Shown: piece after piece, positions 4,192 through 23,766 of the stretch
Numbering within the stretch: position 1 is the first letter of the stretch
How the letters are laid out: the number at the start of each line of letters is the position of its first letter
Source: a bacterium
GTDB lineage: Bacteria > Electryoneota > AABM5-125-24 > Hatepunaeales > Hatepunaeaceae
Assembly: GCA_013202285.1 (NCBI GenBank)
Contig: JABMRV010000113.1
Coordinates: 1-45,219 of the forward strand
Direction: 5' to 3'
Length of the DNA: 45,219 nt
The notes under the pieces: generated by a model
What the model was told of the DNA's origin: nothing
Databases searched by the model: none
Seen by the model: the letters and a program-made list of their open reading frames with translations, nothing else
Translations under genes and position numbers: made by a program

Positions 4192-4405
4192 GTCATTCCG
4201 GTGAAACAGACTATCCGAGAATGGAAATAAACTGCGTTCTGTCAGGTCTTGCGCCGCCAGGCGTGTGACCTGACAGATCCACCCACTCGTGTTGTTAGTT
4301 GTTAATTCAATACTTACCGTCGGGTCACATCCCGCGGTGCGGGACAAGACCCGACGGAACGCACTCGATATTCTATTCTCAGACAGACTGCTGCGCGGGA
4401 ATGAC
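4192..4405. repeat. 214-bp REPIN/MITE-like element: two inverted, diverged copies of a hairpin-bearing module
   Basis: Termini GTCATTCC...GGAATGAC; the outer 31 nt match at 24 of 31 positions when one end is reverse complemented. Arm 1 hairpin TCTGTCAGGTC...GACCTGACAGA (4238-4277); arm 2 hairpin CCGTCGGGTC-ACAT-CCCGC-GGT-GCGGG-ACAA-GACCCGACGG (4317-4357). Confidence 0.8.
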
Positions 4406-16500: not shown

Positions 16501-19500
16501 ATGCCTTCTCCGGTGAGGAAGATATCGGGGCAAGAGTTTATTCTCTTGATCGGACTTCTGACATCGACTCTGTTGATGCTGCATGTCGGTCAAGCAGACG
16601 GTTCCATCCGTTTCAGCAGAAGCTATGCGACTGAACGGATGATCGATCCAACCCGTTTTGCCCCCAAATATGGAATGTCAAGCGTCCTCTGGGACAGTTC
16701 ACAAGCCGATACGACCATGCCTGAGGGGCTCGATACCCTTGCTGTTCCTCAGGACTCCACCCTGATCGGTGAAATCTCCCCACCAGATTCAGGTATTCAA
16801 CCTGCTGATTCCTCTCTCCCTGCCGTAAAAGAAATCCCCCTCGTAGGGGTTGAAGATCTTCAACCCCTACAAATTGGAGAAGAAGGAAAAACTCCCGAAA
16901 CGGGGAGCGCCGATATTCCTGTCGATGAATCTACAGATCAATCGACCGCTGACGGATTTCCGGGCGATGAACTTGAACCGTTTGAACGAGAAGAAAGCAA
17001 AGATGAGGAAGACCTTCCTTACCATCCAACCCTGATCTACCTGATTGACATTCCCCTTGAAGTTGAGGCAGAACTTGACACAACCACCGATTACGTTATC
17101 CTGAGCAAGCGGTTGAACGGTGTGGAGATGCCGACTACCGGCGCTCTCAGCAAAGACGTTTACCTCGAGCGATCCCTCAGAATGGCAGACCATGAGTCCT
17201 GGCGACAGTCGGTACTGCGAAAACTGCCGAGCAAAACGGAATCGAAAGGTGGTGGTTTGGTCATCGAGTTACCTATCATAAGATCGGAGCGTGCACAGAG
17301 GATATTTGGCGGTCAGAACATTGGATTGTCGGTTTCGGGTCATATAGAAGTGTCGGGTGACCTTGGAGTGGTGCAGACAGAGGAACTGCAGCAGGACAAT
17401 CCCAACCCAACTAACTACCAGTTTAATGTTAATCAGACCCAGTCATTCGTCATCAAGGGGAAGGTGGGTGAGAAGGTTGATGTGGACATCTCGCAGGATT
17501 CGGAAAGGATGTTCGACTTCGAGAACAACCTCTCAATCCGATATACCGGCGATGAAGATGAGATTCTGAAATCGTTGGAGGCGGGGAACATATCGCTCTC
17601 TCTCGGCGGCGCCAGCCTGGTTTCAAGTTCATCCAAACATAAGGGATTGTTCGGTTTCAAGACGGAGTCTCAATTCGGCGCGCTGAGGTTGACGACTGTT
17701 GCCAGCCTTGAGAAAGGGAAAAAGAACCAGTTGACCAAGGAGGGAGGCGCACAGTCCAGCGGCAGGAAGACCATCCCGCCTTATGATTACATACAAAATC
17801 GATACTTTTTCCTCCCTGGATCCGCTGTTATTGACACCCTTATTGCTGAGAACGATACCACCATTTATCATTGGAGAGATTACTATCGTAATCATTACAA
17901 AGAACGCGACAACTACCTCAATCCCTTTGCAGTTCCCCTGGATTCACAGATTGTTAAAATCGAGGTTTACCGTTCACCACCACTCACAAAGGATGTCGCC
18001 AGTTTCTATGGCTGGGCGCTTTATGATCTCAGGGACAGCACCATTGTTTCGGATCCGGACAGCATCAGACCACAAGAGCATCAGGATGGCACTTTCGAAC
18101 CGCTTCGCCAAGGATCAGATTATGAATACAATTCGCTCACAGGATATATCAGACTAAATACAACAGTTGACAATGCGATCCTCGCCGTGGCTTATAGCAT
18201 CCAGGCACTTAATTCCGATAGCATTCCTTGTACGTTCGGTCAACTGGAACCGTCGAACAGGGATACAAACTACTTCAAACTGCTGAAGCCCAAGAGTCCC
18301 CAGCCAACCGATTCTACCTGGAACCTGATGTGGCGTAACGTTTACTCGCTCAAAGGTACGAATCTATCGCGCGAAGGTTTTGAAGGACGGATAACATACC
18401 AGTCGGATGAGGATGAACAGCGTCAGGATACAGGACCGTACAAAGGTGAAGTTAAGACATTCATCGAGATATTCGGGCTCGATCATTTCGGCGCACAAGC
18501 AGGGCAGAACAGTCCCGATGGCAATATCGATGAAGCTTTCATTAATTGGGAACGAGGTGAATTGACTTTTCCCGATCTGAAACCGTTTGCACCCGAGGGG
18601 TGGTCGAAGGGTGGTCAACCGCAGAAGACGGAACTCGATTCCACGCAACTAATAAAGCATGCAGACATGTACACTAAAACCGGACGTGAACGGAGCCGGA
18701 CGGTCAGCGACTATCAGATTGAGGTTGAGTTCACCAGCATCAGCACTACTACATCGCTGGGGATTGGAGTTCTCGAGGGGTCGGTGGAGGTCTATCTTAA
18801 TGGGCAGCAATTGGCTGAAGGGATTGATTTCACTGTCGATTACATATCAGGTGAACTGACCATCCTCCGCAGTGCGGCGTTCACCGAGAATGCCGATATT
18901 GAGATCAAGTACGAAACTGCCCAACTATTCCAGCTCGATACAAAAACGCTGCTTGGTCTGCGTGCGGAGTACGAATTATGGGATGGTTCAAGTATCGGCG
19001 CAACAATGCTGCATTTGAACCAGAAGACACTCGACCGCCGAGTACGTGTCGGAGGGGAACCCATTCGAAATTCGATCTGGGGGCTTGACGCAAATATGAA
19101 TTTCAAGCCATTTTTCCTCACCAGCGCGATGGACTGGCTGCCGTTGATAGAAACAGATGAACCATCCACATTTTCAATCAAAGCAGAGGTTGCACAGGTG
19201 TTCCCTGACCCCAACAATCTTAATTCACCATCCACAGGAGATTACAACGGTGTGGCGTACATAGACGATTTCGAGTCCATCAAAAGGATTACGCCGCTTG
19301 GTATCAACCGCAAGCAGTGGTCGGCGGCGAGCTTCCCGGAGTATGACGGCAGGGGAGATGCTTTGTGGAAAAAGCGCCGCGGTAGAATGATCTGGTTCAA
19401 TCCCTGGCAACAGATAGATATTACCGAAATCTGGCCCGACAAGGAGGTTCAGGCGCAGGCGTCGAAAATACCGGTGATGGAAATCCAGTTCAAGCCCTGG

Positions 19501-22500
19501 TGGAATGATTGGGACCTTGATAATCAGCTTGCCGCTGCAGCCGCGGACAGCGCCGATGCTGAGGAACCCGAACAGTACTGGGGTGGAGTTATCCGTTATC
19601 TCGGTTCAGGTTATGCAGATCAAACAGAAGCGAAGTTCCTCGAAATATGGCTCAATCTTAAAAGCAATGTCGGTAATGAAAACGTGATGTACATCGACCT
19701 GGGAAGAATTTCCGAGGATGCCATCCCAAACAACCTGCTGAACACGGAAGATCGTCCTCAACCGGGAAGAACGGTTGGAAACGGCATCCTTACCAGGGAT
19801 GAAGATACCGGTATAGATCTAATAGATGCTGATGACCCTGCCGACATGATCGACGTCAACGGTGACGGTAGAAACCCGCCACAGTTGCTTCCATCCTACG
19901 ATGAATGGCAGTATGATGCGAGTCGAAGTAAAAGGAGTGATTACTCCCATATAAACGGCACAGAGGGTAACATCGAGGATGAAGGAGGACGCTATCCCGA
20001 TACGGAAGACTTGAACAACGATACAAACATAGATCGCGCCAACGATTTCTACCGCTACAAGATCGATCTGTCTGAAGGCAACGGTAATCGTTACATCGTC
20101 ATGGATAATCCCAATGGCTGGCGACTCTACCGGATTCCGCTCAAGGACATGCTGGAAGTAGGGAGTCCTTCGATGGCTTCTCTTGAATATGCGCGTATTT
20201 GGCTGACCGGTTTTGAGCGACCCGTTCGACTGCAGATCGCCCAGATTGACATAGTCGGTAACGAATGGCGCGAAGTGGAAGTGTCCGATGACCGCGGAGG
20301 CATGATGGATCCGGTGAGTGTATCGGTTGTCAATACAGATGATAATCCGGAATACTCTCCGCCGCCGGGAGTTTCGGGTGAACTCGATCCGATCACCAAC
20401 TTGAGATCGAGAGAGCAGTCATTGATGTTAAAGATAAATCGTTTGCGCGGGAGTGAAACATGCGAGGTGATAAAACAGTTGTCCCATCACCAGAAGATGG
20501 ATTTGTCTGAGTATCGCCGGATGAAGATGTTTGTGTATCTGGATGATCAAGGTCGTGACTGCGACCTCGAGATGTCGCTGCGATTCGGTTATGATTCAGA
20601 TAAAAGGTATTATGAATACTCGCGGCGACTCAACCCTGGTTGGGAAGGCAACGAGGTGATTATCGATTTTGATCGTCTCACTTCGCTGAATTTCCTCCGT
20701 CAGCAGGATTCACTGCGTAATTACGATATTCTTCCCGATGGTGCTATAATAAGAGTGGTCGGTAATCCGTCACTGCGCGACATTCGTTTCTTCTCACTGG
20801 GGATCAAGAATCATGGACATGATATATACGAGCAGGACGAGGTGGGAGTATGGTTCGATGAGTTGAGACTTTCCGACATTCATGACGACCCCGGGTGGGC
20901 AGCCAAGGGGTCTGTTGATTTGAAGGTCGCCCGGGATCTGATGACCTTTCATGCCGATCTCAGCCAAACTCAGGCGGATTTTCGCGGTGTAGATATGAGA
21001 GTCGGTAAAAACAAGGATTACCTCACCGGGAGGGTAAGCGCCTCGTTCAAATTAGATGCACTGTTCAACCCGCAGTGGAATCTTAATCTGCCTTTAACGA
21101 TGAACTTCAGCCAGGGGATCGATGTTCCCAAGTACCAGACCGACAGCGATGTTCTGCTGTCGGCTATGACCGATGAGAGAATCGATATCTGGTCGATTTT
21201 CATGGATAATCTGAAATCAAACGACCGTTACAGTTATAATCCCAAGTACCAGAAACCTATCGATGCACAGATTAACACAGAGAAGAAATACTCTTACGGC
21301 TTCAGCGCATCAAAGAGGAAATTCTCCGATAATCCCTGGACAAAATACACTGTCGAACGCATCCGGTTGAGCAGGCTCAGCCTGAACAAACGTTATGTTA
21401 CCAGCTCGAGTTACATGTACAGCAAGGATAGGGATCTCAAGGGCGACCTGAGCTATGATCTCTCTTTCGAGAAACCTCTTGAACTGAACTGGCTTGCATG
21501 GACGGAAAACCTGCCGCTGCTTGGAAGGGTGTCGGAGAGTACCTTCAAACCGCTTCCCACCAGTTTCGGAACCAGTGTCGGTGCAACAGAGTCGATGGAA
21601 CGCTATGTGAAATGGAATAAGCCCGATACCGAGGAGGAGAATTACGGTCTTGCCACAGACCGTTCCTTCAACATCTCCTTCAAACCAATAGCAATATTGT
21701 CGATAGATTTCGATCAGACGGTCAGGGCTGATCGAGTGCGTCTGCAGGCTCAGCGTGATACCATCGCCTTGGAAATAGCCAGATTTGAAGTTGACAGGAC
21801 TCCTTACTGGGATGGGGGAATACTGGTTGACACTACAGGATGGGAGGAGGCATTAGAAGCCGAGAAGAGAGGTGTTCAGGATAAGATGTTCTGGAAACTG
21901 TTCGGTACGCATTTTATCGATCACAGCTTCAATCAGAATTTCTCATTCAATCTGACACCGTCTTTTGTAAGCTGGTTATCGACGAGCGCCAGTTACACCC
22001 CGCGCTACAACTGGAGCTGGAGCCGGAATTACGATCCAGGCGGAAGAAGGGTTGAAGTCGGTAGCGGATTTGGTACAAACGTCATATTAAAATTACCCCA
22101 GATAGTTCGTTTATGGGTTGACAAGAAATCGGGCAAACCAGGCGATGCCAGTGGCGGGGATATGACACCATGGGAAGATGAATTTCCGGGTCTGGAAGAA
22201 CTGGATAAGGATAAGAGCGATATTGGGGGGAAATTCCCTCCCGGCAGCAATAAGAAGCCACCGCCCTGGATCGATGAGTTCGATTACAAGGGGAGGGCAG
22301 ACATCCCTGTTGGCGATGATGCTTCCGGCGAGAGTAAAGACAAATTTCCGGAGGGGGAGGACATTCCTGCCCGACAGGAAGAAACATCCGATGAAGAAGA
22401 GAGTAAGACGGATTTCGCTGAGACTGCCGAACCCGACAGCCTTGAAATGGAGGAGGAGAAACCGTCGCGTAAACAAGATCCCCTGCTGCTCCTGCGAGGT

Positions 22501-23490
22501 CTGTTAACTCGTCTGAGTGACATTAGCTGGCGCTATGACCAGAACAACAGATATTTGAATCCCGCGATTGAATTAGGGCAGGCGAATTGGAAATACCGAC
22601 TGGGTTTAACGCGTGACCCGGGTCTGAAAAATGTTGAGGGTTTTGCCTATACCAACAACTTCTCGCGTAACGACCAGCACACTTTTAGCACCAGGTTGGA
22701 TTTTAGCAAGAATATAACGATTAACCAGCTCCGTTATGAGTATGGCTGGATTCATTCAATAAATGAATCCGCGGGTCTTCTGAGCGAATCGGGAAGTTAT
22801 TCCAGAACCGTTTGGCAGTATTTCGATTCGGACGGCAGGTCTATAAAGACCTTTCCGGCATTGAACTGGTCGGTACGATGGTCGGGATGGGAAACATTAC
22901 CTTTGCTGGAGAAGATTACCACATCGGTCTCGCTGGATAACTCTTTCAGTGGCAGCGCTCGTGAAAGCTGGAACAAAACTGCGAACGATGCTGAAAGGGT
23001 AACCCAGAGTATCGAATACGAGAAGAGCTTCCAACCATTGATAGGAGTTAACTTCATCTGGTTGTGGAACGTGAATACTGATGTTAATTACAACCTTAAC
23101 CAGAGTGTAAGCGATCAGACCCTTGGAAATAGGAAGACAAGGAGTCTAACGAAAGAGTTCAGACTAAGCGCCAGATACAATTCACGCAAGGGCTTCCGTA
23201 TTCCAATACCTGTCTGGCCCTTCAAAAACCGCCGCTTCAAAAACAATACGACCTTCTCTGTAGTATATAATAATCGAACCAGTAAATCTGAGAGTTCTGT
23301 GGACAACTCCAAGTTTGACCTTGATCGTGAAGATTCGTCCTGGTCGTTCAGACCTTCGATCGATTACCAGTTCTCAAATACGGTTTCAGGCAGTTTCTTC
23401 TATGAATACGCCGTTCAGAGGTCGGTACTAACGGGTAAGACCTTTTCACAGGACTTCGGGTTCAGGGTCAATATATCGATACGTGGGTGA
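16501..23490 (+). CDS. sprA: SprA/Sov, type IX secretion outer-membrane translocon
   Basis: 2329 aa; SprA hallmarks: YNSLTGYIRLNTTVDNAILAVAYSIQ, VFPDPNNLNSPSTGDYNGVAYIDDFESIKRITPLGINRKQWSAASFP, MIWFNPWQQIDITEIWPDKEV, VPVMEIQFKPWW-type region, C-terminal barrel strands. Confidence 0.93.
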   Translation: MPSPVRKISGQEFILLIGLLTSTLLMLHVGQADGSIRFSRSYATERMIDPTRFAPKYGMSSVLWDSSQADTTMPEGLDTLAVPQDSTLIGEISPPDSGIQPADSSLPAVKEIPLVGVEDLQPLQIGEEGKTPETGSADIPVDESTDQSTADGFPGDELEPFEREESKDEEDLPYHPTLIYLIDIPLEVEAELDTTTDYVILSKRLNGVEMPTTGALSKDVYLERSLRMADHESWRQSVLRKLPSKTESKGGGLVIELPIIRSERAQRIFGGQNIGLSVSGHIEVSGDLGVVQTEELQQDNPNPTNYQFNVNQTQSFVIKGKVGEKVDVDISQDSERMFDFENNLSIRYTGDEDEILKSLEAGNISLSLGGASLVSSSSKHKGLFGFKTESQFGALRLTTVASLEKGKKNQLTKEGGAQSSGRKTIPPYDYIQNRYFFLPGSAVIDTLIAENDTTIYHWRDYYRNHYKERDNYLNPFAVPLDSQIVKIEVYRSPPLTKDVASFYGWALYDLRDSTIVSDPDSIRPQEHQDGTFEPLRQGSDYEYNSLTGYIRLNTTVDNAILAVAYSIQALNSDSIPCTFGQLEPSNRDTNYFKLLKPKSPQPTDSTWNLMWRNVYSLKGTNLSREGFEGRITYQSDEDEQRQDTGPYKGEVKTFIEIFGLDHFGAQAGQNSPDGNIDEAFINWERGELTFPDLKPFAPEGWSKGGQPQKTELDSTQLIKHADMYTKTGRERSRTVSDYQIEVEFTSISTTTSLGIGVLEGSVEVYLNGQQLAEGIDFTVDYISGELTILRSAAFTENADIEIKYETAQLFQLDTKTLLGLRAEYELWDGSSIGATMLHLNQKTLDRRVRVGGEPIRNSIWGLDANMNFKPFFLTSAMDWLPLIETDEPSTFSIKAEVAQVFPDPNNLNSPSTGDYNGVAYIDDFESIKRITPLGINRKQWSAASFPEYDGRGDALWKKRRGRMIWFNPWQQIDITEIWPDKEVQAQASKIPVMEIQFKPWWNDWDLDNQLAAAAADSADAEEPEQYWGGVIRYLGSGYADQTEAKFLEIWLNLKSNVGNENVMYIDLGRISEDAIPNNLLNTEDRPQPGRTVGNGILTRDEDTGIDLIDADDPADMIDVNGDGRNPPQLLPSYDEWQYDASRSKRSDYSHINGTEGNIEDEGGRYPDTEDLNNDTNIDRANDFYRYKIDLSEGNGNRYIVMDNPNGWRLYRIPLKDMLEVGSPSMASLEYARIWLTGFERPVRLQIAQIDIVGNEWREVEVSDDRGGMMDPVSVSVVNTDDNPEYSPPPGVSGELDPITNLRSREQSLMLKINRLRGSETCEVIKQLSHHQKMDLSEYRRMKMFVYLDDQGRDCDLEMSLRFGYDSDKRYYEYSRRLNPGWEGNEVIIDFDRLTSLNFLRQQDSLRNYDILPDGAIIRVVGNPSLRDIRFFSLGIKNHGHDIYEQDEVGVWFDELRLSDIHDDPGWAAKGSVDLKVARDLMTFHADLSQTQADFRGVDMRVGKNKDYLTGRVSASFKLDALFNPQWNLNLPLTMNFSQGIDVPKYQTDSDVLLSAMTDERIDIWSIFMDNLKSNDRYSYNPKYQKPIDAQINTEKKYSYGFSASKRKFSDNPWTKYTVERIRLSRLSLNKRYVTSSSYMYSKDRDLKGDLSYDLSFEKPLELNWLAWTENLPLLGRVSESTFKPLPTSFGTSVGATESMERYVKWNKPDTEEENYGLATDRSFNISFKPIAILSIDFDQTVRADRVRLQAQRDTIALEIARFEVDRTPYWDGGILVDTTGWEEALEAEKRGVQDKMFWKLFGTHFIDHSFNQNFSFNLTPSFVSWLSTSASYTPRYNWSWSRNYDPGGRRVEVGSGFGTNVILKLPQIVRLWVDKKSGKPGDASGGDMTPWEDEFPGLEELDKDKSDIGGKFPPGSNKKPPPWIDEFDYKGRADIPVGDDASGESKDKFPEGEDIPARQEETSDEEESKTDFAETAEPDSLEMEEEKPSRKQDPLLLLRGLLTRLSDISWRYDQNNRYLNPAIELGQANWKYRLGLTRDPGLKNVEGFAYTNNFSRNDQHTFSTRLDFSKNITINQLRYEYGWIHSINESAGLLSESGSYSRTVWQYFDSDGRSIKTFPALNWSVRWSGWETLPLLEKITTSVSLDNSFSGSARESWNKTANDAERVTQSIEYEKSFQPLIGVNFIWLWNVNTDVNYNLNQSVSDQTLGNRKTRSLTKEFRLSARYNSRKGFRIPIPVWPFKNRRFKNNTTFSVVYNNRTSKSESSVDNSKFDLDREDSSWSFRPSIDYQFSNTVSGSFFYEYAVQRSVLTGKTFSQDFGFRVNISIRG
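16843..16870. repeat. Perfect 28-bp palindrome inside the sprA coding sequence
   Basis: GTAGGGGTTGAAGATCTTCAACCCCTAC equals its own reverse complement; read in frame as part of VGVEDLQPLQIG. Confidence 0.95.
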
Positions 23491-23583
23491 TAGCGGCAGT
23501 CTATTCCTGTTTTTAGACTTATTAACGATGTATATTACTACCGTTCGGTTTTATTTAGCTAATCAGGGTTTTCTAATCTTGGA

Positions 23584-23690
23584 GGGCGGGCTTTAGCCCG
23601 CCCCAATGGACTTACCATGAAAGCTGGCGGACTGAAGCCACCCCCCATGCGTTAGTTAATCCTTAAAAGCGGACGGACTGAAGTCCGCCC
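23584..23690. repeat. Intergenic palindrome/direct-repeat cluster between sprA and the fabH-like gene
   Basis: GGGCGGGCT-TT-AGCCCGCCC (23584-23603); GGCGGACTGAAGCC...CCATGCGTTAGTTAATCCTT and GGACGGACTGAAGTCCGCC...CCATGTGTCAGCTAATCCTT form a diverged direct repeat. Confidence 0.75.
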
Positions 23691-23766
23691 TCCATGTGTC
23701 AGCTAATCCTTTGATTTAGCAGTAATTTATTGAAATAAATTTTCAAACCCGGAGAAACAACGGTTA

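Follow-up and report, generated by a model that had tools for sequence, protein, structure and literature searches.

How does a perfect palindrome come to lie in frame inside the gene for a large secretion protein? The window analysed here, the whole stretch of 45,219 nucleotides, contains a plus-strand open reading frame (16501-23490; 2,329 amino acids) that matches NCBIfam TIGR04189 (Sov/SprA, E=2e-242) and the Pfam domain SprA_N (PF14349, E=3.6e-40), and it is referred to below as sprA (sov), encoding the outer-membrane translocon of type IX secretion. Within this gene the first-pass annotation had described a loopless, in-frame 28-bp palindrome with perfect 14-bp arms, and exactly this is found at 16843-16870 (GTAGGGGTTGAAGATCTTCAACCCCTAC; no strand assigned), with the foot GTAG present at both ends (GTAG/CTAC). 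The peptide had been given as VEDLQPLQ, which is in frame but too short: read in phase 0 on the plus strand, the palindrome spells out VGVEDLQPL and supplies the initial base of a further codon (Q), so that the full peptide is VGVEDLQPLQ, codons 115-124. In an alignment of seven SprA proteins, these codons fall within a hypervariable acidic linker (approximately 16714-17010, plus strand) that follows a conserved N-terminal block and precedes the first conserved domain.

Low-complexity segments are able to mimic repeats, and codon usage in such a segment might by chance have produced the palindrome. It is, however, the single palindrome in the window with arms of at least 14 bp; base composition predicts 1.7e-4 of these per window, and none was present in 60 Markov-shuffled windows, in which the largest arm was 12 bp, bearing out the very small chance probability originally claimed. 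Copies were then counted in the organism's own genome (3.0 Mb in 261 contigs, 92% complete) by pattern search and read from the genome stretches. As the first-pass annotation had anticipated, GTAGGGGTTGAANATNTTCAACCCCTAC recurs within three mismatches, at 14 dispersed places compared with none for the reversed control, and looser stem patterns yield 18 convincing places and one doubtful one, a total of about 18. These dispersed copies refute a chance origin, to which we attach a negligible probability. The doubtful place, in GlgA (L129), was set aside because it has four mismatches and shows hardly any gap, or none, relative to solved homologues.

The copies have the anatomy of repetitive extragenic palindromes (REPs) of the GTAG type: a palindrome within the 20-40 nt range (28 nt), dispersed sites, and a GTAG foot. 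In the own genome they are mostly single; sprA and four other copies retain full GTAG...CTAC ends, and the feet have decayed in several others. A second genome of the same family, G001, has the element at about 50 places, usually with GTAG at one end only; inverted pairs (the BIME arrangement) occur there, and the stems vary by compensation (TTGAA/TTCAA, CTGAA/TTCAG, TTAAA/TTTAA), which is REP/BIME anatomy of the GTAG type. Among 39 genomes of the phylum, the element was found only in these two, and in none of the seven other genomes of the same family; a search of viral contigs with a one-sided 24-mer gave no match. In three intergenic copies of the own genome (L002, L011 and L012) the similarity extends into a flank, GTTGACTT.CT..ATAAA, and a second hairpin, ACCCCGCAGGGGT, comes after the palindrome in two of the three, so that some of the copies are parts of a larger composite element.

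Long open reading frames contain seven of the 18 convincing copies, in every case in phase 0. Besides the sprA linker, the sites are the linker separating the membrane part of ftsK from its motor, a CHASE2 adenylate/guanylate cyclase (peptide SGVENLQPLR), a divergent polysaccharide deacetylase directly past its N-terminal hydrophobic segment, the N-terminal extension of a heptosyltransferase (its ATG overlaps the stop upstream), and two surface proteins, one invasin-like and the other cadherin-like. Only phase 0 of the three phases is free of stops, the others reading TAG or TGA. Because the element is self-complementary, a peptide of one type, VGVE[N/D][L/F]QPL, results whichever way round it lies, by direct reading of both strands; its compatibility with host frames thus follows from one stop-free phase combined with this symmetry.

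To establish insertion, the cyclase is the most informative host. Seven CHASE2 orthologues, from seven genera and 54-62% identical, align on both flanks of the element and are shorter by 12-13 residues precisely where SGVENLQPLR lies; the stretch spans 38 codons in the element-bearing gene versus 25-26 in the six orthologues for which codons were extracted. Judged by these alignments, the CHASE2 site has demonstrably received an insertion. The net gain is 36 or 39 nt for an element of 28 nt, and since 28 is not divisible by three, bases were gained or lost alongside the insertion. Aligned orthologues of the divergent deacetylase also lack the element peptide, in agreement with insertion but less sharply than for the cyclase. 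For SprA, whose orthologues in same-family genomes are 46-65% identical, the comparison proposed in the first-pass annotation succeeded in part: VGVEDLQPL is missing from all six aligned orthologues, but the linker is too variable for a clean gap to be placed. The palindrome is therefore neither unique in its genome nor made of residues conserved among SprA proteins, and we infer insertion at the exact sprA site indirectly, because the linker cannot be aligned even with the closest orthologues, at 65% identity.

The sprA copy is the only one of the seven in-gene copies that is still a perfect palindrome, the other six having lost stem pairs, which suggests from sequence comparison that it may be young. 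The intact 14-bp arms could instead mean that in-gene elements are retained for a function, as an mRNA hairpin, a DNA binding site or a useful peptide. The sprA copy is predicted to form a strong RNA hairpin (12 bp, 4-nt loop, -18.9 kcal/mol, z = -6.1), and in-gene copies are frequent, at 7/18 compared with 0-3/40 in G001, a range that spans open reading frames that look spurious (p about 1e-4 to 7e-3). This excess is suggestive only, as the copies are related by descent and genes were called by open reading frame. Against a function stand the unrelated nature of the host proteins, the location of the sites in variable linkers or loops, the orthologues that manage without the element, and the stem pairs lost from the six other copies; we consider a retained function unlikely. 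A search of the window against Rfam returned no match for the palindrome or for any other part of the window.

The first-pass annotation had cited Rickettsia palindromic elements as precedent, and as an analogy of behaviour this holds: these elements too are palindromes that lie in frame within a variety of protein-coding genes (PMC3733652 and references therein). As a family assignment it does not. According to the same source, CGTC tags mark the short types of Rickettsia element and CGTC repeats have no link to RAYT genes, while the element described here ends in GTAG/CTAC and is linked to Y1/HUH transposases. The GTAG feet refute membership, and that the palindrome is a true Rickettsia palindromic element or another CGTC-tagged repeat is extremely improbable.

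The link to transposases comes from other genomes. In the GTDB collection, 81 stretches contain the exact 28-mer, drawn from Planctomycetota, Bacteroidota, Leptospiraceae, Fibrobacterota, Ignavibacteria and other groups. Ten of them have it in the reading frame of a gene that can be recognised: four encode REP-associated tyrosine transposases, and the remainder Mfd, Fmt, CarB, SerRS, D-Tyr-tRNA deacylase and a NuoC/D-type protein. All four transposase open reading frames match NCBIfam REP_Tyr_transpos and carry the element past the HUH motif; in the three full-length ones (L186, L192 and L213) it lies between HUH and the catalytic region (YIINNP), and the fourth (L236) is a short frame with the HUH motif only. 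Their motifs (NHVH or NHIH, WQ, YIINNP) are those of TnpA_REP subclass 2.4 (NH[IFV]H, WQ, YIxNNP; Quentin et al. 2018, PMC6006769), whose double-foot REPs begin with 5' GT[AG]G, end with the complementary C[TC]AC 3', and insert in frame within tnpA_REP genes, in the interval from HUH to the Y motif (PMC6006769). The element thus agrees with subclass 2.4 double-foot REPs in its end sequences, its in-frame HUH-Y position, the transposase motifs and its scatter over several phyla. It differs from those described in PMC6006769 in also occupying seven non-transposase genes in one genome, and in that no cognate transposase was found in its own 92% complete assembly.

Neither the own genome nor G001 yielded a subclass-2.4-type transposase flanked by or carrying the element. 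The two Y1_Tnp genes of the own genome are both without flanking copies, and the one whose motifs were read has YIFENP; among nine same-family genomes, the flanks of Y1 transposases contained other hairpins but not the element in REP-like form. REPtrons are reported to be missing in some REP-bearing species (PMC3733652). A Y1 transposase frame in G001 (L107) carries a different in-frame hairpin (GCCAATCGGGAGATTGGC-type) between HUH and YIHNNP. In the window, a REP-like hairpin pair follows sprA at 23580-23694 (TGGAGGGCGGGC...GCCCGCCC and GGACGGACTGAAGTCCGCCCTCCA), and similar hairpins, GGAGGGCGGAC, flank a Y1 transposase in G007 (L085). Two imperfect hairpins at 4238-4277 and 4317-4357 (TCTGTCAGGTC..., CCGTCGGGTC...), within one intergenic spacer, resemble further REP families of the lineage.

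Relative to solved structures, the host proteins are longer at the element or next to it, by a net of about 5 residues in SerRS, about 5 in D-Tyr-tRNA deacylase and about 8-10 in Fmt; these smaller gains reflect either replaced loop residues or shortening after insertion. In one Brocadiaceae CarB (L221), a second REP-like peptide, VGAGNIQPLQ, occurs in the middle of the frame. In-frame GTAG REPs within numerous unrelated genes, for example in Opitutus terrae, have been described before (Di Nocera et al. 2013, PMC3733652), likewise as short palindromes and likewise including repair and tRNA-related genes; the likeness to the 24 GTAG families of that paper is by description rather than consensus sequence, and its accessible part makes no mention of sprA. 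Given PMC6006769 and PMC3733652, both this type of element and the way it behaves are already known, and the sprA case and its genome are new instances.

Taken together, the dispersed copies, the SprA orthologues without the residues and the CHASE2 gap support the proposal that an interspersed palindrome entered a tolerant segment of SprA: we are highly confident that it is a copy of a dispersed, non-autonomous double-foot GTAG REP that landed, and was tolerated, in the linker. By analogy, the element would have been moved as a single-stranded hairpin by a REP-associated tyrosine transposase (TnpA_REP/RAYT), an enzyme that in other systems cleaves at CT dinucleotides beside GTAG REPs (PMC8266576). 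One copy would have entered sprA at its unstructured N-terminal linker and been kept because the frame was unbroken and the linker tolerates about ten added residues; its effect on SprA is probably close to neutral.

This locus illustrates clearly, and in a form open to test, how a tiny mobile element makes new protein segments: orthologues verify the insertion for one gene, and proteins as well studied as SerRS, CarB, Fmt, D-Tyr-tRNA deacylase and Mfd carry other in-frame copies. Where VGVENFQPL-like peptides turn up in the annotated proteins of bacteria that are not related, they can accordingly be interpreted as traces left by double-foot REPs. More tentatively, double-foot REPs may be a widespread, orientation-independent mobile peptide cassette that colonises protein genes, essential ones included, in several phyla, because their symmetry gives the same stop-free kind of peptide on either strand, and that in this lineage may persist in genes more than in the sister genus.
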